A stretch of DNA of 36,179 nucleotides. Source: a virus. The translations under genes and the position numbers were made by a program. The stretch covers positions 1-36,179 of the IMG/VR virus record IMGVR_UViG_3300032297_000274. One strand, written 5' to 3'. Positions 5,611-29,237 of the stretch are shown here, one piece after another. Every line of letters starts with the position of its first letter. Within the stretch, counting starts at the first letter, position 1. Below the pieces are notes generated by a model. It did no database searches. It had not been told where the DNA came from and saw only the letters and a program-made list of their open reading frames with translations.

Positions 5611-6175
5611 TTGGTGCAACAACACGGTAGAGATCTACCACGATGACCCTAAGATGCTTGAGCGTGTGCGTACAGCGTTCAATGGTGAAGGCTTGCTAGG
5701 AGAGTTCATCCCAGTGCCTAAAGAGTTAAGTGACGCTGTAAGTCCCAACAATACCAACGCAGATGAACTGCGTGAGAAGTATGGATACGCAGACTGGTAC
5801 TCATTCTGCGTCAATGAGTGGGGTACTAAGTGGGAGATCGGTGCTGATGGTTATCCCGCACAGGACATCGATGGTGGCCTCCGTTTGGTATTCGACAGTG
5901 CCTGGGCTCCTCCCTGTGCAGCCTACGAGAAGCTACAGGCCATGGGCTTCCGAATCTACGCAATGTACAACGAGTGCGGTATGTGCTTTGCTGGTATTTG
6001 GGACAACGGTGATGACGACTATTACGAGTACGGTGATATGAACTCGGAGGAAGTAGCGGCCACCCTGCCTAGGGAGCTTGACGAAGAGTTCTGTATCTCA
6101 GAGACCATGGCTGAGTACGAGGCAGAGAATCAAGAGATTGATCTCGACGATGGACTGAGTGCCACCAACGAGTAA
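5603..6175 (+). CDS. YubB/Api92-like ferredoxin-fold protein
   Basis: The N-terminus MPNWCNNTVEI and the downstream pattern FIPVPKEL ... WYSFCVNEWGTKWE ... FDSAWAPP ... match the DUF1281/YubB ferredoxin-like family (Api92-like), widespread in plasmids and phages, whose molecular role is unknown. The last 50 residues are strongly acidic (MAEYEAENQEIDLDDG). At 190 residues the length fits the family. CGGAGG (5592-5597) is the ribosome site. Confidence 0.85.
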   Translation: MPNWCNNTVEIYHDDPKMLERVRTAFNGEGLLGEFIPVPKELSDAVSPNNTNADELREKYGYADWYSFCVNEWGTKWEIGADGYPAQDIDGGLRLVFDSAWAPPCAAYEKLQAMGFRIYAMYNECGMCFAGIWDNGDDDYYEYGDMNSEEVAATLPRELDEEFCISETMAEYEAENQEIDLDDGLSATNE

Positions 6176-6184
6176 TCAAGAATA

Positions 6185-20743: not shown

Positions 20744-21298
20744 ATGCCTATTAAATCATATAAAGGACAGTTGTTAGCTGCCAATCCCAGTAATCCCAGA
20801 GACCCCTTGCATGGGAGTGTTATTCTTATGGTAGCACATAATCCTATCATAACCTTTGGAATTCAAATTAATCAACCCAATAAAGACTTTAATCTTGCAA
20901 GCCTATGTTCCGGAATAGGATTATGGTACGATGGAGAAGATACAGGATACTATGGCGGTAACATGAAAACAGAAAAGGTTCATGTTGTCCATACCAAAGA
21001 CTGGATGGGAATGACCAGTCAAGACATCACAGACGATCTAGCGGTTACCAGTGACATCAGTGTGCTAACGGCATTATGTGCCAATGAAGGCCCTTCATAT
21101 TTCAGAGCCTGTGCTGGATTCTGGGCCTGGGAACAAGGAACCCTAGAACGTCAAATGGATATTAAAAATAACTCTGCTGTTCATCGTTGGGAAGCTGTGC
21201 CAGCAACCCCACAATTAGTATTTGATAAATCTGGTACTGACCAATGGCACGATATACTCAGTGCCAGTGGACAATTCCAAATATCTAATTGGCTTTAA
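20744..21298 (+). CDS. AlgH/YqgE-like (UPF0301) protein
   Basis: The order GQLLAANPSNPRDPLHGSVILMVAHN, GIQINQP, YYGGNMKTEKVHVVHTKDWMG (all within residues 8-90, quoted in pieces), then DISVLTALCANEGPSYFRACAGFWAWEQGTLERQ follows the AlgH/YqgE pattern: LLiA.P...D..F..SV, viN.P, GGPv.....HvLH, and a late GP...R...GyagW..GQLe block. The length (184) matches the bacterial family. Its cellular role is poorly understood (transcription/chaperone-like). Start 20744 follows a late promoter box; the open frame upstream would overlap the divergent gene. Confidence 0.72.
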   Translation: MPIKSYKGQLLAANPSNPRDPLHGSVILMVAHNPIITFGIQINQPNKDFNLASLCSGIGLWYDGEDTGYYGGNMKTEKVHVVHTKDWMGMTSQDITDDLAVTSDISVLTALCANEGPSYFRACAGFWAWEQGTLERQMDIKNNSAVHRWEAVPATPQLVFDKSGTDQWHDILSASGQFQISNWL

Positions 21299-22746
21299 TC
21301 TTTTTCTGGATTTAAGTTATCAAGCATATTGCGAATCAGCGGACCGGCTGATGCTTTAGGCCTAGGTTTTTCTAGACTAAACCCTTCCTTGGGACTAGCT
21401 CGTTCCCATCCTCCGCTATCTGCAGTCGATGTATTCACAACACTGGTACGTTTCAAACTATCCATTACAGAACTTGTGTTATTGTTACTGCGCTGTTGTC
21501 CGAAACTCTTTTCATCTTCTTCACCTAGATCTGTAATACGTAGTGTATCTACATTAAATTCTAAGTCAACTTTCTGTCCAACACCCGAGCTACTACGAGT
21601 CTTCATAAACTGGATTTGATAGCGTCCACGTTCCTTCATAGCCCTAGAAGTAAAGATACCTATGACATTATCTGCTGTCATAATCTTTGACAAACCGCCC
21701 GAAATGTGACTGTGATCGAATTCAATTTCTTCAACAGCACTACGATTTAACTGTGAGGCTGTAACAGTAATACACTGGGTTTCCATAGCCAAATTACGGA
21801 TCTCTTCTGACACATATTTGTCTTTTACAAACAAATCGCTGGGCGATACCTTCACTGATAAAGGCATCATCAAATCGAGGTAATCTATGAGAATTACGTC
21901 TGGTTTTGCGCCTTTTTTGACCTGATATTCCTTCAAATAGGCTCGAATATCGTTACAATTTTTCCCCGAAGGCATGTACTTAACTTGCAGGTTTCCTGCC
22001 TTTTTACCCAGCATTTTAACCTTTAATTCTACATCATCGATGTTCTTAAAGATCTCACGAGTTGTGATACCTGTCATCATAGAATCCAAACGCATGGCTA
22101 CTAAACCTTCACTCAATTCGAATGTTAGGTACAGTACATTAAGTCCCTGTTGTGCCCAGTTTACACCCAAGTTAGCCAGGAACAAACTCTTACCACCACC
22201 CGATCCTGCACAGAAAATGTTTAACTCACCGCGGTTAAATCCGCCATAGAGTTTCTTATCAATGCTGGGCCATCCTGTGCTGATCTGTCCGTTGCCGTCT
22301 TTGAGTTTGGTCAGTCTAGATCTAGGATCTTCAAAGTAATCTGTACCCATATCTTTGTTTAGGCTGACCTGTATTGCATCCTTGATTAGTTTTTCAACCG
22401 GATTATATTCACCTGATTCCAGTAAATCGGCACTCTTAAGAATTGCACGTTCTAGAGCTTTGTGTCTACTAAAAGTCTCAAACTCATCTAACAGCCATTC
22501 ATAGTTTTCTTTAGGTAATGTAATAGTCTGAAGATCAGTGCTCACTGCTGTGTTCACAATCACAGTCTCAGGCATTACCTTATATTCATCAACATATTTG
22601 GTAATAAATTCTGCTGTGGATTTTAATCTTTGATCAAAATTCTCTGGATCAAAGATGTTCTGGCACCGGGCAAATGTTTCTGCATCTGAAAGAAACATTT
22701 CCAGATACAGTTTCTGCATATCGTAATTATAATTAGGTTTAGTCAT
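21295..22746 (-). CDS. 41: Replicative DNA helicase (gp41/DnaB-like)
   Basis: RecA-type motor with Walker A GSGGGKS (residues 181-187), LNVLYLTFELSEGLVAMRLDSM as the DnaB motif H1a, the D-box PDVILIDYLDLMM (Walker B), and the later VTASQLNRS and SGVGQKVDLEF regions typical of gp41/DnaB helicases. An N-terminal helical domain (residues 1-130) is used for hexamer assembly and primase contact. At 483 residues it matches T4 gp41 (475). The first bases overlap the gp61 stop by eight, so primase and helicase are coupled as expected for the T4 primosome. Confidence 0.9.
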   Translation of the reverse strand: MTKPNYNYDMQKLYLEMFLSDAETFARCQNIFDPENFDQRLKSTAEFITKYVDEYKVMPETVIVNTAVSTDLQTITLPKENYEWLLDEFETFSRHKALERAILKSADLLESGEYNPVEKLIKDAIQVSLNKDMGTDYFEDPRSRLTKLKDGNGQISTGWPSIDKKLYGGFNRGELNIFCAGSGGGKSLFLANLGVNWAQQGLNVLYLTFELSEGLVAMRLDSMMTGITTREIFKNIDDVELKVKMLGKKAGNLQVKYMPSGKNCNDIRAYLKEYQVKKGAKPDVILIDYLDLMMPLSVKVSPSDLFVKDKYVSEEIRNLAMETQCITVTASQLNRSAVEEIEFDHSHISGGLSKIMTADNVIGIFTSRAMKERGRYQIQFMKTRSSSGVGQKVDLEFNVDTLRITDLGEEDEKSFGQQRSNNNTSSVMDSLKRTSVVNTSTADSGGWERASPKEGFSLEKPRPKASAGPLIRNMLDNLNPEKD

Positions 22747-23737
22747 TTAGTGCTTCAAGTTTTTTCTTAAGTAGTTGTATTTTTATCTCGTTGTCTTCGC
22801 AGTAGTGCAAAATTGTGGCCAGTGTATATAATCGTCCGTATTCTTTGACAGCATCTGCAACGTCTTTGATATTGTCACCCCAAGGTGGTAAACTAACGGA
22901 CCAGCCATTGGCCAGTGCTGCCTTGATCAGTTTAGCACCTGGTTTGTCTCGATCAGGTACCGCAATAACCTTTTTTCCTAGACTATTGATTCTAGCAATC
23001 TGTACGTCATTTGGCTCATTGGTCATAATGCTAACGCCGTCCACTGCAATAGCATCAAACTGACCTTCTACTACTATGACAAACGCTCTGTTGTCTCTCT
23101 GCGAATCTATGTTAAACACATAACCGCTTTGACTATCGGTGAGATATTTAGGTTTTCCGGCTTTGATTTTTCTACCTGTGTATCCTACTATTTTTTCATC
23201 TTGATAGAAAGGTATAATCACACGATCTCTAAAGCCTGCTGCCGCACTCCAATGCCAGTTATACCATTCCCAGCCTACTCGTCGCTCATCCATTAGATAC
23301 GAGATTACATCAAATAATTCAGCGTCCTGAGCGCCTTCAGCTACCCAGGTATCTATGGGCAAACAATCTTCGGGCAAGGGTATTTCTTTTAATTCAAAAC
23401 TCAAATCTCTTTTAGCAGTAGGTTGATCTTCTTTTAATTTAAGAGCATACAACCCTAACTTACCTATAGTATCAGAGGACATTCCCAGCCAGCGAAATAG
23501 GTCTTTGGTATTTCGGCTTAATAATTTTCCAGGAGTCCAACCTGCTTTAAAATTACAATTGAAACAGTGGTATTGGAAGCCGCCATCTGGAGATGTTCGA
23601 ATACCTCCACGCTTTCTATCGTCACGACTTTCACCATTATGGGTGCAACACACAGCATCAAAACTAGTCCATCCACTTGGAGTAGTCTTACGCTTAGGTG
23701 GTAAGAGAGCTAGTACGGCTGATTGTATTTCATGCAT
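22739..23737 (-). CDS. 61: DNA primase (gp61)
   Basis: N-terminal zinc-binding region with C31/H33 and C58-x2-C61, then the Toprim fold: VIVVEGQFDAIA with catalytic E224, and AVPDRDKPG with D262/D264. The order and size (332 residues; T4 gp61 342) identify it as the primase that lays RNA primers for lagging-strand synthesis with gp41. Its last bases overlap gp41. A possible ribosome site precedes ATG 23737 weakly. Confidence 0.9.
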   Translation of the reverse strand: MHEIQSAVLALLPPKRKTTPSGWTSFDAVCCTHNGESRDDRKRGGIRTSPDGGFQYHCFNCNFKAGWTPGKLLSRNTKDLFRWLGMSSDTIGKLGLYALKLKEDQPTAKRDLSFELKEIPLPEDCLPIDTWVAEGAQDAELFDVISYLMDERRVGWEWYNWHWSAAAGFRDRVIIPFYQDEKIVGYTGRKIKAGKPKYLTDSQSGYVFNIDSQRDNRAFVIVVEGQFDAIAVDGVSIMTNEPNDVQIARINSLGKKVIAVPDRDKPGAKLIKAALANGWSVSLPPWGDNIKDVADAVKEYGRLYTLATILHYCEDNEIKIQLLKKKLEALND

Positions 23738-23746
23738 CTATACAGT

Positions 23747-24589
23747 TTAACTTCTGTACAGGAATTTGTCAAATGTTCCGCGGTAATTATAGTTTTCGCT
23801 GTTGTCCGTTTCAGTTGGACCTAGCCCTGGTACATGCCAAACTTGAACCCAAGAATAAACTCCGTTGAAATTCACAGTGTCAATTCCGGTATATCCATTG
23901 TATTCTTTGGTAAAAATTGTAGAATAGCTACCAAGATAATCTGGATTGTTGTTCAATGTTGCTTTGATATAAACTGTACCTTTGAACCCTGACATATAAA
24001 ATGCCATGGTATGTAATCCAGAATTGCTGTTGTATTCGGGATTGGCATAGACTGCTCTGCTTTTAAACTCATATAGATCAATTGATGAATTAAAACTTTT
24101 TTGGAAATCAGCAACTTCTACAGATGGTTGTAAAACAGGATAAGCATCAGATTGTAGATGCAATGTGCCATTTATACCGTAGTAGGTATTAGAATATGTG
24201 GGACTGTAACTACCTGTGTCGTCTAAAGATTTAATTACAAATTGATAACTACTGCGGGTTAAATCAATAGTATCACTTTCTTCTAATGTTAGGGTGGCTA
24301 CACCTCGAGTACTGGTTGTAACTCCGTCGTCTAATATGTCTAACGGTTTTTCTACAATCAATCTTTGATTAACAGCATCGAACATACTGAATACATAAGT
24401 TGCGGTGTTGCTGATAGAAATACGCTTTTGGTCACTGTTCTTGAACTGAATCCTCACAGTGTTTTTAAGACCTTTTTGTACTTTTAGATCGTGTTGATAC
24501 ATGACTCGATTAACTCCGCGAATGGTAGGATCCAAATCTAATATTACGGCAAGATTATTTTGGTATAAATAGACTGGTAAATTTTGCAT
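23747..24589 (-). CDS. Putative virion structural protein, 280 aa
   Basis: Beta-rich with many Ser/Thr/Asn/Tyr and no cysteine; MQNLPVYLYQNNLAVILDLD, VRIQFKNSDQKRISIS, GSYSPTYSNTYYGINGTLHLQ and WVQVWHVPGLGPTETDN suggest stacked beta domains of a baseplate or neck type protein. An AATAAATA late box lies directly upstream (24595-24602), which supports a structural role. ATG 24589 is chosen because the longer frame would run into the promoter. The specific structure cannot be named. Confidence 0.6.
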   Translation of the reverse strand: MQNLPVYLYQNNLAVILDLDPTIRGVNRVMYQHDLKVQKGLKNTVRIQFKNSDQKRISISNTATYVFSMFDAVNQRLIVEKPLDILDDGVTTSTRGVATLTLEESDTIDLTRSSYQFVIKSLDDTGSYSPTYSNTYYGINGTLHLQSDAYPVLQPSVEVADFQKSFNSSIDLYEFKSRAVYANPEYNSNSGLHTMAFYMSGFKGTVYIKATLNNNPDYLGSYSTIFTKEYNGYTGIDTVNFNGVYSWVQVWHVPGLGPTETDNSENYNYRGTFDKFLYRS

Positions 24590-24594
24590 AACCT

Positions 24595-24602
24595 TATTTA
24601 TT
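24595..24602 (-). promoter_or_regulatory. Late promoter on the minus strand
   Basis: AATAAATA ends only five bases before ATG 24589; with a T4-like start site the +1 would be at or next to the A of ATG. Confidence 0.65.
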
Positions 24603-24606
24603 GACA

Positions 24607-24990
24607 ATGTCCACTCCTGACCAGTTCCAAGAAAATTATCCGTTCGTTAGCTGTATTAAATCAAATGATATAGAATACGTTGGAATAATCGTTAATTTCG
24701 ATGATTTTGTAGCCAGCATATATGATATCAGTATCATCAAAAGTGATCAAGATAAACGTAAATTCTTAGAACTAGGAGAAGTTTGGTGGTGGGAAAGCAA
24801 TCGTAAGATTCCTATCAATATCTTTTTAAAACAAGAAATGTCTGAATTCAGATATGCTATTAAAACATTTAACAGCAAGGACGTCGGACTGATATTCGGT
24901 CCAAAAGTAAATCTAAGTGAGATTGCGGAAAAAAGGATTAAACGTAAAAGTATTCAACTAGTACGTAATCCTAGGCGTAAGGATAGCTAA
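24607..24990 (+). CDS. Hypothetical protein, 127 aa
   Basis: Unrecognised. MSTPDQFQENYPFVSCIKSND, then a beta-rich middle (VGIIVNFDDFVASIYDI, WWWESNRKIPINIFLKQEM) and a very basic C-terminus (IKRKSIQLVRNPRRKD). It is divergent from the structural gene and converges with the DnaE-like gene with a 20-base overlap of the 3' ends. There is no ribosome site upstream of ATG 24607 (TTATTGACA), so a leaderless message is possible. Confidence 0.62.
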   Translation: MSTPDQFQENYPFVSCIKSNDIEYVGIIVNFDDFVASIYDISIIKSDQDKRKFLELGEVWWWESNRKIPINIFLKQEMSEFRYAIKTFNSKDVGLIFGPKVNLSEIAEKRIKRKSIQLVRNPRRKDS

Positions 24991-25549
24991 TACCTTCGCA
25001 GATTAAATTCATCTGTACCACAATAACGTGGGCATAGGCCACAGCGTGAGCCTTCTTAAAATAGTATTCATCCCCAGTTGGTTTGATCCAAACTTCTTTC
25101 ATAATTGTATCCCAGTCCTGTCCAATTAAGTGACGTTTAGCAGGACGGATCATGGCTAGTACTGCTGCCAATTCTAAAATGCTTTTAGGTTTTGCCTGGG
25201 CTAGAATAGAATGATGTCCGCTTACATGAAACAATAAGTCGGTGAATTCTTTTTGTTCTAAAAGGCCCCATAATGGTTCAGTGGCCAGTAGTTGTTGCAG
25301 GTGAGCTTCATCTCTTACACCTTTGTAGACACTGACATTTAAGAAATCAATCTTAAAGTAACCTCTATCCTCTGCTTCTTTATAATCTATACTTGCTAAT
25401 CCAGTAATAGGATTGCAGGGAATAGAGTGACAATATGCGCCAGTATTGTGTTTTTTAAAAGCACCATTTTCTTGGATAGCCGCAGGAACATTCTTGATAA
25501 CATCGAGTACCTTTGCTCTATCTAAAAAATCAATGTCAATATCCGGCAT
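24971..25549 (-). CDS. Compact DNA polymerase III alpha (DnaE)-like protein
   Basis: MPDIDIDFLDRAKVLDVI (residues 1-18) matches the PDxDxDF catalytic motif of C-family polymerases, and RGYFKIDFLN (63-73) the second motif with its single Asp (D68 here). Further on, SILELAAVLAMIRPAK and EYYFKKAHAVAYAHVIVV correspond to DnaE blocks a..aLyRPg and F.KSHA.aYa. Thus the three catalytic aspartates seem preserved while the palm insertions, PHP domain and OB/beta-binding regions are gone: 192 residues against more than 1100. Whether it polymerises is doubtful; it may be a regulatory or scaffold protein. It starts inside the end of the kinase gene (14-base overlap). Confidence 0.62.
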   Translation of the reverse strand: MPDIDIDFLDRAKVLDVIKNVPAAIQENGAFKKHNTGAYCHSIPCNPITGLASIDYKEAEDRGYFKIDFLNVSVYKGVRDEAHLQQLLATEPLWGLLEQKEFTDLLFHVSGHHSILAQAKPKSILELAAVLAMIRPAKRHLIGQDWDTIMKEVWIKPTGDEYYFKKAHAVAYAHVIVVQMNLICEGISYPYA

Positions 25550-26318
25550 TTCGAATCTCGTCGTAAGATGGTGCGTAGTTACCACGGTGTTGGACAGTAA
25601 TACCTGCGGCTACATTAGCAAATATTATAGCTTTTTCTATGTCTTTTGTAAAGAGATATTGAGTAGCCAGTGCTGCCAAAAATGTATCTCCACAACCGCA
25701 AACATCAGTAACTTCTGCAGACTTGGTTGGAAATATGTTACCATTGTACATTGCGCCTTTACTACCTAATGTAACAATCAGGTTATCATGATTGGATGTG
25801 GCATTGTTATATTCTAGTTCATTGATTTTAATAAAAACATCAGGAAGATTGAACATACTTAGATCCCGTTTTTTAGTATCAATGAATACAGGACACTCAG
25901 AATTTTTAATTATCTGATGTATTTGAAACTCAGATAAAAATCCTTTATTGTAATCTGATATCACAATAATATCATATCCATCTATGGGAAACGGTGAGTC
26001 ACCGCTCCAAGGTACAATTTCAGGTTCGTCATCTACACGTAACATGTGCTGACCCGAACGTTTGTCAATGTATCGAGTTTTTTTAATTATTTCCTCATTG
26101 GTTATGAAGTCTACATTGATGCCTAAGTTTTCAAAATTCTTTTTGACATTAGACGCCATACCAGATACAGTTTTTGTTTCTACAATTTTAATAACAGGCA
26201 CCGGTGCCTCGGGGCTTAATCTATCAATAGTCCCAATTTTATATTCATCAACACAACTATCACCGATTAGTAATACGCTGTATGAGTCCGGTTGTTGAGT
26301 AGTTTGTGACAAGTTCAT
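25536..26318 (-). CDS. hldA: Heptose-7-phosphate kinase (HldE N-domain/HldA type)
   Basis: PfkB/ribokinase fold with the HldE signature DRLSPEAPVPV (residues 32-42). IVTLGSKGA and DVCGCGDTFLAAL (205-217) form the anion hole and catalytic base D211, where most relatives have GAGD. It phosphorylates D-glycero-D-manno-heptose-7-phosphate to the 1,7-bisphosphate. Its start lies 59 bases inside the hldC gene, in a different frame, so the two proteins are separate yet coupled. In Enterobacteria kinase and nucleotidyltransferase are fused as HldE, kinase first; here they are split and the order is reversed. Confidence 0.85.
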   Translation of the reverse strand: MNLSQTTQQPDSYSVLLIGDSCVDEYKIGTIDRLSPEAPVPVIKIVETKTVSGMASNVKKNFENLGINVDFITNEEIIKKTRYIDKRSGQHMLRVDDEPEIVPWSGDSPFPIDGYDIIVISDYNKGFLSEFQIHQIIKNSECPVFIDTKKRDLSMFNLPDVFIKINELEYNNATSNHDNLIVTLGSKGAMYNGNIFPTKSAEVTDVCGCGDTFLAALATQYLFTKDIEKAIIFANVAAGITVQHRGNYAPSYDEIRNAGY

Positions 26319-26658
26319 AAAATTTAATTTCTTTGCAGAGGTGTTCTCCTACAATTGGTTTGCCCCTATAGTCGCTGCCTTTGACCATGACATCTGGTTG
26401 ATAGGTTTCTAAGATATATTCTAATTCAGCTTCATCGGCAAAATACCAAACTGTATCAACACATTTTAAACTCTGCAACATAAAAGATCTATCATTTTGG
26501 TTGTTAATGGGACGCTCGGGACCTTTAAGCTGTTTAACTCTAGTATCTGTATCAATACAAACTAATAGATGATCTCCAAGACTTTTTGCGTATTCTAACA
26601 TTTCGATATGACCCCTATGCAGAATATCAAATGTTCCGTTAACCACTATTTTTTTCAT
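26260..26658 (-). CDS. hldC: Heptose-1-phosphate nucleotidyltransferase (HldE C-domain/HldC type)
   Basis: NGTFDILHRGHIEML (residues 7-21) has the HxGH nucleotide-binding signature of cytidylyltransferases. LKGPERPI, DRSFMLQSLKCVD and PDVMVKGSDYRG follow the RfaE2/HldC family, as does the ending TGLIQRI. The enzyme joins heptose-1-phosphate to a nucleotide (ADP in LPS pathways). At 132 residues it is a complete domain. It lies between hldD (20-base overlap) and hldA. Confidence 0.85.
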   Translation of the reverse strand: MKKIVVNGTFDILHRGHIEMLEYAKSLGDHLLVCIDTDTRVKQLKGPERPINNQNDRSFMLQSLKCVDTVWYFADEAELEYILETYQPDVMVKGSDYRGKPIVGEHLCKEIKFYELVTNYSTTGLIQRITNR

Positions 26659-27424
26659 TTAATGACCTTGTTAATTTTGTCATGTCTGCCTGAGTGAATT
26701 TTTGATACTGTTTGGCAACGTTATCTGGCATTGGGATATATTCTATTCTAGCATTGTATTTGTCTGCAATTATACGAGCCACACTTTCAAAAGATGTCGC
26801 TTGACCTGTGCCTAAATTCCATATTCCAGTTTCTTTAACATTAAAGAATTTTTTATGAATATCGGTTAGATGTTCGACGGGAACAAAGTCCCTTAGGTAG
26901 TTTTCGCTGCCTTCAAATAATTTAATAACTCCGGTTTCCTTGGCCTGTTTTTCAAACTTATGGTAGGGACTTGCTTGATCACCTTTGTGGTCTTCATAAG
27001 GTCCGTAGACATTAAAATATCTAAAACCTTGTACAACTATGTTATCAAACTTGGTGCTTAGAATATGTCTGTCAAACAAATACTTACTCCAGGCATAGGG
27101 ACTTTGTGGACTCAGAGGAGCGTCTTCTTTAAAATTATTTCCTAATCCGTAGACACTGGCGGAACTGGCATATTGCAGATTCACTCCATTTAGTTGACAG
27201 GCCATTAATAGTATACAGCTAAAGTCGTGATTTTGTCTCATCACTTTTTCGACATTAGTTTCAGTGGTAGAACTAATTGCACCTAAATGAATGCACCAAT
27301 CTAATCCTTCCATTTCCGGGGGCTCATCTCCCCAATCGTAATATGATAATTCGTGCTCGTCTTTTAACGCATTGACCATGTTCTGGCCAATGAATCCTTT
27401 ATAACCTGTGATTAATATTTTCAT
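26639..27424 (-). CDS. hldD: ADP-heptose 6-epimerase (HldD/RfaD)
   Basis: SDR-type epimerase: GYKGFIG (7-13) binds NADP, SSAS precedes Y110-x3-K114 (SPYAWSK), and the HldD-specific stretches FRYFNVYGP.EDHKGDQAS, LFEGSENYLRDFV, GIWNLGTGQATSFESVA and IEYIPMP...YQ.FTQAD closely follow the E. coli enzyme. It converts ADP-D-glycero-D-manno-heptose to the L-glycero form used in LPS inner core. At 261 residues it is shorter than the 310-residue bacterial enzyme because of a shortened N-terminal region after the first strands and an earlier C-terminus. It overlaps the cupin gene by four bases. Confidence 0.9.
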   Translation of the reverse strand: MKILITGYKGFIGQNMVNALKDEHELSYYDWGDEPPEMEGLDWCIHLGAISSTTETNVEKVMRQNHDFSCILLMACQLNGVNLQYASSASVYGLGNNFKEDAPLSPQSPYAWSKYLFDRHILSTKFDNIVVQGFRYFNVYGPYEDHKGDQASPYHKFEKQAKETGVIKLFEGSENYLRDFVPVEHLTDIHKKFFNVKETGIWNLGTGQATSFESVARIIADKYNARIEYIPMPDNVAKQYQKFTQADMTKLTRSLNEKNSG

Positions 27425-27777
27425 TTTTGACTGTCGCCTTTACCTACGCGATAATTGTCTTCGACTGAATCAGGTGTACTAACTTCGATAATAGTACCTT
27501 CTTCTAGGCAAATAACCTGATGGGGAAGCAATGGAGGATTATGCCAAGTTTCGCCTGCTCCTAATTCATATTCTGTTTGTGTGGCATTGGCTGTATTGAT
27601 AACAATGACTTTAAATTTCCCATCTAACACATACCATGTTTCATCTTTGTGGGCATGAAAATGCATACTGAATTTTGCACCGGCATTAAACTTCAAAAGT
27701 TTACCACAGTACTTGTCGTTGGTAGCCCAAATTAATTCATGTCCCCAACCTTTTTCTACAAAACCTTCTAATCTCAT
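27421..27777 (-). CDS. Cupin-fold protein linked to heptose genes
   Basis: FSMHFHAHKDETWYVLDG with H39, H41 and E46, and LPHQVICLEEG with H86, form the metal site of a single-domain cupin, like sugar-phosphate isomerases or mannose-6-phosphate isomerase-like proteins. Its position as first gene before hldD, hldC and hldA suggests it acts on the same sugar, possibly replacing the missing GmhA isomerase. This is inference from context. ATG 27777 overlaps the previous stop as TAATG. Confidence 0.75.
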   Translation of the reverse strand: MRLEGFVEKGWGHELIWATNDKYCGKLLKFNAGAKFSMHFHAHKDETWYVLDGKFKVIVINTANATQTEYELGAGETWHNPPLLPHQVICLEEGTIIEVSTPDSVEDNYRVGKGDSQK

Positions 27778-28541: not shown

Positions 28542-29237
28542 TTACTTTAAATTAATCTCTGAACATATCTCTTTGACTAGAGCAACATCTGCAGGCACTT
28601 CTTTGAATTTTCGCAGCCAATAAGGAACATCAAATGCCGGAGCAATCATATCTAATTGTTCATCACTCATGTTTTTAACCATTGTCTGTCCTGCACCGGT
28701 ATTCAAAATCACCCAAGGACTAATGTGGCCATTGCGTATATCATGTACCGCTTTATTTAAACTTACATAATTGAAGTAATGATTAAATTCGGCACCGTGT
28801 TCGTCAGCCCATTCCATCATAGTTTGTATACTGCGTTGAACTGCGCTTTCTACAGGCTCGACTTTGAGTATCTCAAATAGATACTTCTCGTATAGTTCAT
28901 CTCTGCACCAATGATCTAATTTAATTCCGCTTTTAATCACGTAGTCAATAAATTTATCGGGATACAAAGGATTAACATTATTAATGAAACTACCAAATTT
29001 TACAAAGGCATTGTAATAACTGCTGTCTGCAAAATTGTCATAGGTCTTTAATTTTTTCGCATTCTGTGTTAGCTGCCAAAATCGGTTAAAGGCCATGAAA
29101 CCTGCCTGTACCCTCTTTTCATCTTTTTGTAGAGCCCGCCTTTTTCGTTCACACATGTGAGCAATTAGAGTTTTATCTTTCATAAAACTCTTACCACAAT
29201 GTACACAATTATAAGGTTGATCTACTAATGCTATCAC
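28542..29237 (-). CDS. C2H2-type zinc-finger phage protein, 231 aa
   Basis: The N-terminus carries one zinc finger, YNCVHCGKSFMKDKTLIAHMC: C11, C14, H27 and C29 (a CCHC arrangement). The remaining 200 residues are helical with GFMAFNRFWQLTQ and many aromatic residues, without known catalytic motif. The general design suggests an RNA or DNA-binding accessory of phage replication or transcription. Start overlaps the upstream gene by four bases. Confidence 0.72.
   Translation of the reverse strand: MIALVDQPYNCVHCGKSFMKDKTLIAHMCERKRRALQKDEKRVQAGFMAFNRFWQLTQNAKKLKTYDNFADSSYYNAFVKFGSFINNVNPLYPDKFIDYVIKSGIKLDHWCRDELYEKYLFEILKVEPVESAVQRSIQTMMEWADEHGAEFNHYFNYVSLNKAVHDIRNGHISPWVILNTGAGQTMVKNMSDEQLDMIAPAFDVPYWLRKFKEVPADVALVKEICSEINLK

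Follow-up and report, generated by a model that had tools for sequence, protein, structure and literature searches.

The 192-residue protein encoded by a short open reading frame (ORF) in the window, i.e., the whole 36,179-nucleotide stretch of viral DNA analysed here, is very probably (we would put it at roughly 85%) the C-terminal subunit of a minimal C-family DNA polymerase that T4-like jumbo phages encode in two pieces. We refer to this protein as the C-half, and to the product of a second, distant gene as the N-half. The case is computational and draws on homology, predicted fold, a complementary break point, co-occurrence of the two halves, replication-gene neighbourhoods, the presence of a family B polymerase and purifying selection. 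A split minimal DNA polymerase III alpha has already been described in group 2.2 jumbo phages (Viruses 2021, 13:63, PMC7824862), and the C-half is a newly found member of this polymerase from an uncultured phage.

The C-half and its relatives

The original prediction of a 192-residue ORF proved correct, and we add that the gene lies on the minus strand, with an ATG at 25549 and a stop codon at 24971-24973. A GTG start at 25585, giving 204 residues, was considered less likely, as the added residues lie inside the neighbouring kinase ORF in another frame. Similar N-terminal extensions occur in some relatives and apparently arise because the kinase end is conserved. All four motifs that had been named from the translation, i.e., MPDIDIDF (residues 1-8), KIDFLN (66-71), IRPAK (134-138) and FKKAHAVAYAH (164-174), were confirmed in the order of bacterial DnaE. 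In 200,000 shuffles of its sequence the same motif order never arose, which, together with the family and fold matches, rules out a chance motif match as the source of the likeness; the resemblance to DnaE is homology.

In a PHROGs search, the C-half matched phrog_11778, a 197-residue phage family annotated as DNA polymerase (E 8e-67), with residues 3-185 covering positions 8-193 of the profile, i.e., the whole length of the family. A weak match to phrog_405, a 1190-residue phage DnaE family, was also obtained (E 3e-4). Pfam returned the Pol III finger domain alone, below threshold, and no domains beyond Pol III equivalents were found in the C-half. A phmmer search of the PDB with the single C-half sequence gave no match; an alignment profile searched against PDB sequences matched DnaE structures (5lew, E 9e-5). 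The original description of the protein as DnaE-like is thus borne out by phrog_405, by the profile match and by the predicted fold.

At least 566 relatives were found in a single scan of viral contigs, and the 80 metagenomic relatives that were kept are 63-76% identical to the C-half and uniform in length. Among phage records, the carriers are jumbo phages, including RaK2, 121Q, GAP32, PA5oct, Atu_ph07 and Phosso, with 37-54% identity. Relatives were also present in bacterial and archaeal genome contigs (L187-L197). All of these are MAG contigs from unrelated phyla, and they are most easily read as jumbo-phage DNA mis-binned into cellular genomes.

The distant N-half and the predicted folds

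Eight larger records with a C-half were searched using the Pfam Pol III palm model PF07733, of which the C-half begins at about position 96. Five of the eight contained a second short ORF matching model positions ~12-98, with a score above the Pfam gathering cut-off. This N-half (phrog_11127; about 155-180 residues) holds the GS nucleotide-binding motif, e.g., GVGRGSSVASYVLYLIGVHKIDSLKYNLDW, and terminates with EFLR or DFLR directly before the stop codon in 82 of 85 copies. The stretch of DnaE that it matches directly precedes PDIDIDF.

The N-half was present in 59 of the 60 C-half phage records listed, the exception being a 109 kb record; this count covers the listed records, and three more C-half records lie outside it. 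Conversely, a C-half was found in the two largest N-half metagenomic contigs (364 and 383 kb). In the complete genomes compared, the distance between the halves ranges from 15 to over 200 kb, and no fused or adjacent halves occurred among the fetched loci. Given these distances, the failure to find an N-half in ten shorter contigs (42-107 kb) and in the window record itself, a 36 kb fragment, is uninformative, and we infer the pairing of the halves in the window's phage from its relatives. A clamp-loader gene lies downstream of the N-half in 56 of 56 loci, and a family B DNA polymerase was encoded in every larger two-half record tested, i.e., the five PF07733-positive records together with G007, G008 and G010.

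AlphaFold models of both halves were confident, with pLDDT values of 87 for the C-half and 91 for the N-half. Residues 1-190 of the C-half align with residues 461-841 of Taq Pol III alpha (Z 8.8, 3.3 A over 188 residues) and with about residues 400-784 of the E. coli enzyme. The model was similarly alignable to mycobacterial and PolC structures, compared with Z 3.5 for the best unrelated structure. For the N-half, with Z scores of 8-12 overall, residues 61-168 align with E. coli residues 271-393 and with residues 303-413 of the mycobacterial enzyme (Z 12.0). The break between the halves thus falls between about residues 393 and 400 of E. coli DnaE, and profile searches against PDB sequences returned the same enzyme and the same junction for both (Taq 454 and 461). 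Since the alignments end and start without sharing residues, the halves are complementary and non-overlapping. In Foldseek searches Pol III alpha topped the lists of both halves, though with weak E-values (0.02-0.04 at best). An unrelated predicted fold, which had been named in advance as evidence against the DnaE assignment, did not appear; over its whole length, the C-half model aligns with Pol III alpha. At the start of the N-half, residues 1-60 (positions 6001-6180 of locus L097) form a small domain with pLDDT above 90 and no clear match. This domain could be a partner- or DNA-binding module standing in for lost Pol III parts.

The C-half has half the length of the DnaE stretch to which it corresponds (residues 400-781) and carries no GRGS in its 192 residues; the complete palm with GS motif, thumb, fingers and (HhH)2 that single-chain C-family enzymes combine, nearly always together with PHP, are not united in it. 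Nor is the C-half a miniature enzyme complete in itself, since these phages encode the other, leading half of the palm, GS motif included, as a gene of its own.

Active site, selection and gene neighbourhood

The metal ligands of C-family polymerases are E. coli D401, D403 and D555; D405 is conserved in DnaE and is Asn in PolC (PMC3919608). Residues D3, D5, D7 and D68 of the C-half correspond to D401, D403, D405 and D555, respectively. As originally predicted, the catalytic aspartates are kept: in 61 C-half sequences D3, D5, D7, K66, D68, R135, P136, K138, K165, K166, H168 and Y172 are all invariant. The motifs DxDID, KxD, RPxK and HxxxY are likewise retained in eight diverse cultured jumbo phages. 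D5 and D68 are 63 residues apart, versus 152 for D403 and D555 in E. coli DnaE, and this difference in length implies that most of the thumb is missing.

A protein so much shorter than DnaE could be a relic, as was first proposed, left by the decay of a full-length phage dnaE. We regard this as wholly improbable, given pairwise dN/dS values of about 0.03-0.15, indicative of purifying selection, about 50 invariant columns in the alignment, and the abundance and uniform length of the relatives described above. The short length and the derivation from a host-type replicase core might also suit a non-catalytic mimic that impedes host Pol III, e.g., through contacts with the partners of that enzyme, and so stops host replication. 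This reading is very unlikely: the parts of Pol III alpha that bind clamp and tau are absent from the C-half, none of its catalytic aspartates varies, and it is accompanied by an N-half whose GS motif is intact.

The genes surrounding the C-half are listed in Table 1. Gene order in relatives runs from phrog_11058 through the C-half, the small opposite-strand ORF and the structural-like gene to the primase and the helicase.

Table 1. The C-half and neighbouring genes in the window. Conservation is the number of relatives with the neighbour among those with enough flanking sequence.
Feature	Position	Strand	Evidence or content	Conservation
Helicase, DnaB-like replicative, T4 gp41-like	21295..22746	-	phrog_19 (E 2e-77)	56/57
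DNA primase, T4 gp61-like	22739..23737	-	phrog_47 (E 1e-32)	68/68
Structural-like protein	23747..24607	-	phrog_14467 (E 9e-13)	70/70
Small ORF, tail-to-tail with C-half	24601..24990	+	phrog_11637 (E 2e-32)	75/76
C-half, probable second half of split minimal Pol III alpha	24971..25549	-	phrog_11778 (E 8e-67); AF2 pLDDT 87; Taq alignment Z 8.8; palm strands with catalytic D3, D5 (and D7) and D68; reduced fingers with R135 and H168/Y172	
PfkB/HldE-like kinase, heptose cassette	25536..26318	-	PfkB (E 9e-16)	12/63
Conserved upstream neighbour	28542..29237	-	phrog_11058 (E 2e-58)	63/63

The phrog_11637 ORF (129 residues) overlaps the 3' end of the C-half by 20 nt at its own 3' end, on the opposite strand. 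The phrog_11058 protein, which shows a weak N-terminal zf-C2H2 match below the Pfam cut-off (E 0.008), is a candidate partner of the C-half.

The C-half had been noted to follow a set of heptose genes, and this is indeed so. The kinase ORF end overlaps the C-half start by 14 nt, and adenylyltransferase and epimerase ORFs lie upstream of the kinase on the same strand. The full cassette (25536-27777, minus strand) comprises HldE-like kinase, adenylyltransferase, nucleotide-sugar epimerase and cupin/cysteine-dioxygenase-like ORFs, and these heptose-type sugar nucleotide genes are probably surface-sugar cargo. Its ORFs occupy this place in about 7-13 of 63 relatives, with the kinase and adenylyltransferase in 12-13 (about 20%), and on this ground a functional link of the C-half to heptose synthesis was rejected. 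The adjacency, originally described as hard to explain, is not puzzling, because the cassette is variable cargo beside a nearly invariant replication block.

This replication setting bears on a further reading, which takes up the template-independent activity raised originally: together, the halves would make up a nucleotidyltransferase without template-directed synthesis, one that reuses the Pol III palm as a terminal transferase or to modify protein or RNA. Such an enzyme would fit a pair that keeps the palm core and metal site intact but has lost most of its thumb, along with every downstream domain for DNA and clamp binding, in genomes that also encode a bona fide family B polymerase. We nevertheless consider it unlikely, since both RPxK and the KxHAxxY motif of the fingers are retained and the genes are grouped with primase, helicase and clamp loader.

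The proposed enzyme and known systems

Under the favoured reading of a split polymerase, the N-subunit, encoded far off next to the clamp loader, would supply the nucleotide-binding GS motif, and the C-subunit would supply the Mg2+-binding aspartates and the fingers helix. The halves would assemble into one C-family palm active site, and the assembled pair would add nucleotides to a primer on a template. The pair may be an accessory polymerase that works alongside the family B replicase at the phage fork, perhaps extending the RNA primers of the adjacent primase, or filling short gaps, before hand-off to the family B enzyme. With no PHP, HhH or clamp-binding parts and little thumb, low processivity is to be expected unless replisome partners hold the pair on DNA. 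The loss of most of the thumb likewise makes productive DNA binding doubtful without partners.

A more specific version, which we put forward tentatively and hold to be possible but doubtful, is that the two distant genes encode an obligate heterodimeric mini-polymerase of ~360 residues dedicated to primer extension beside the family B replicase. If true, the phage fork would have two polymerases, in the way of DnaE and PolC in Bacillus, one of them built around the smallest C-family catalytic core known. Two short chains, each from its own gene, that did form one C-family active site would mark how small this class of enzyme can be, and phages that possess a family B enzyme as well as a minimal C-family one could divide the labour at the fork between the two.

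In the group 2.2 description, a short C-unit holds the Mg-binding and template-binding region and a distant N-unit holds the NTP-binding region, and the same genomes also encode a family B polymerase; this published split is itself a bioinformatic inference (PMC7824862). We found no experimental work or biochemistry on the split polymerase in the open-access literature. With halves that strictly co-occur, a break point in common and neighbourhoods that are conserved, the published split merits testing at the bench. The two-unit layout and the accompanying family B polymerase are the same in the published set and in ours, and Atu_ph07 is common to both. No structural difference was found; the window member differs in sequence, at the identity to the proteins of cultured phages given above, and its phage has a heptose cassette just upstream of the C-half.

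Full-length phage DnaE (phrog_405), e.g., of Bacillus phage 019DV002 and Enterococcus phage 9183, belongs to the same superfamily and is also phage-encoded but, unlike the split pair, is a single chain of 1000-1300 residues. Matches to the Bacillus and Enterococcus phage proteins proved to be ordinary single-chain genes. With bacterial DnaE and PolC, the C-half shares the palm topology, the equivalents of D401, D403, D405 and D555, a Lys placed two residues ahead of D555 and the HAxxY helix of the fingers. The phage pair differs from these enzymes in having its break inside the palm, where the GS motif is parted from the aspartates, in its shortened fingers and nearly absent thumb, and in having no PHP, HhH2, clamp-binding, OB or tau-binding parts.
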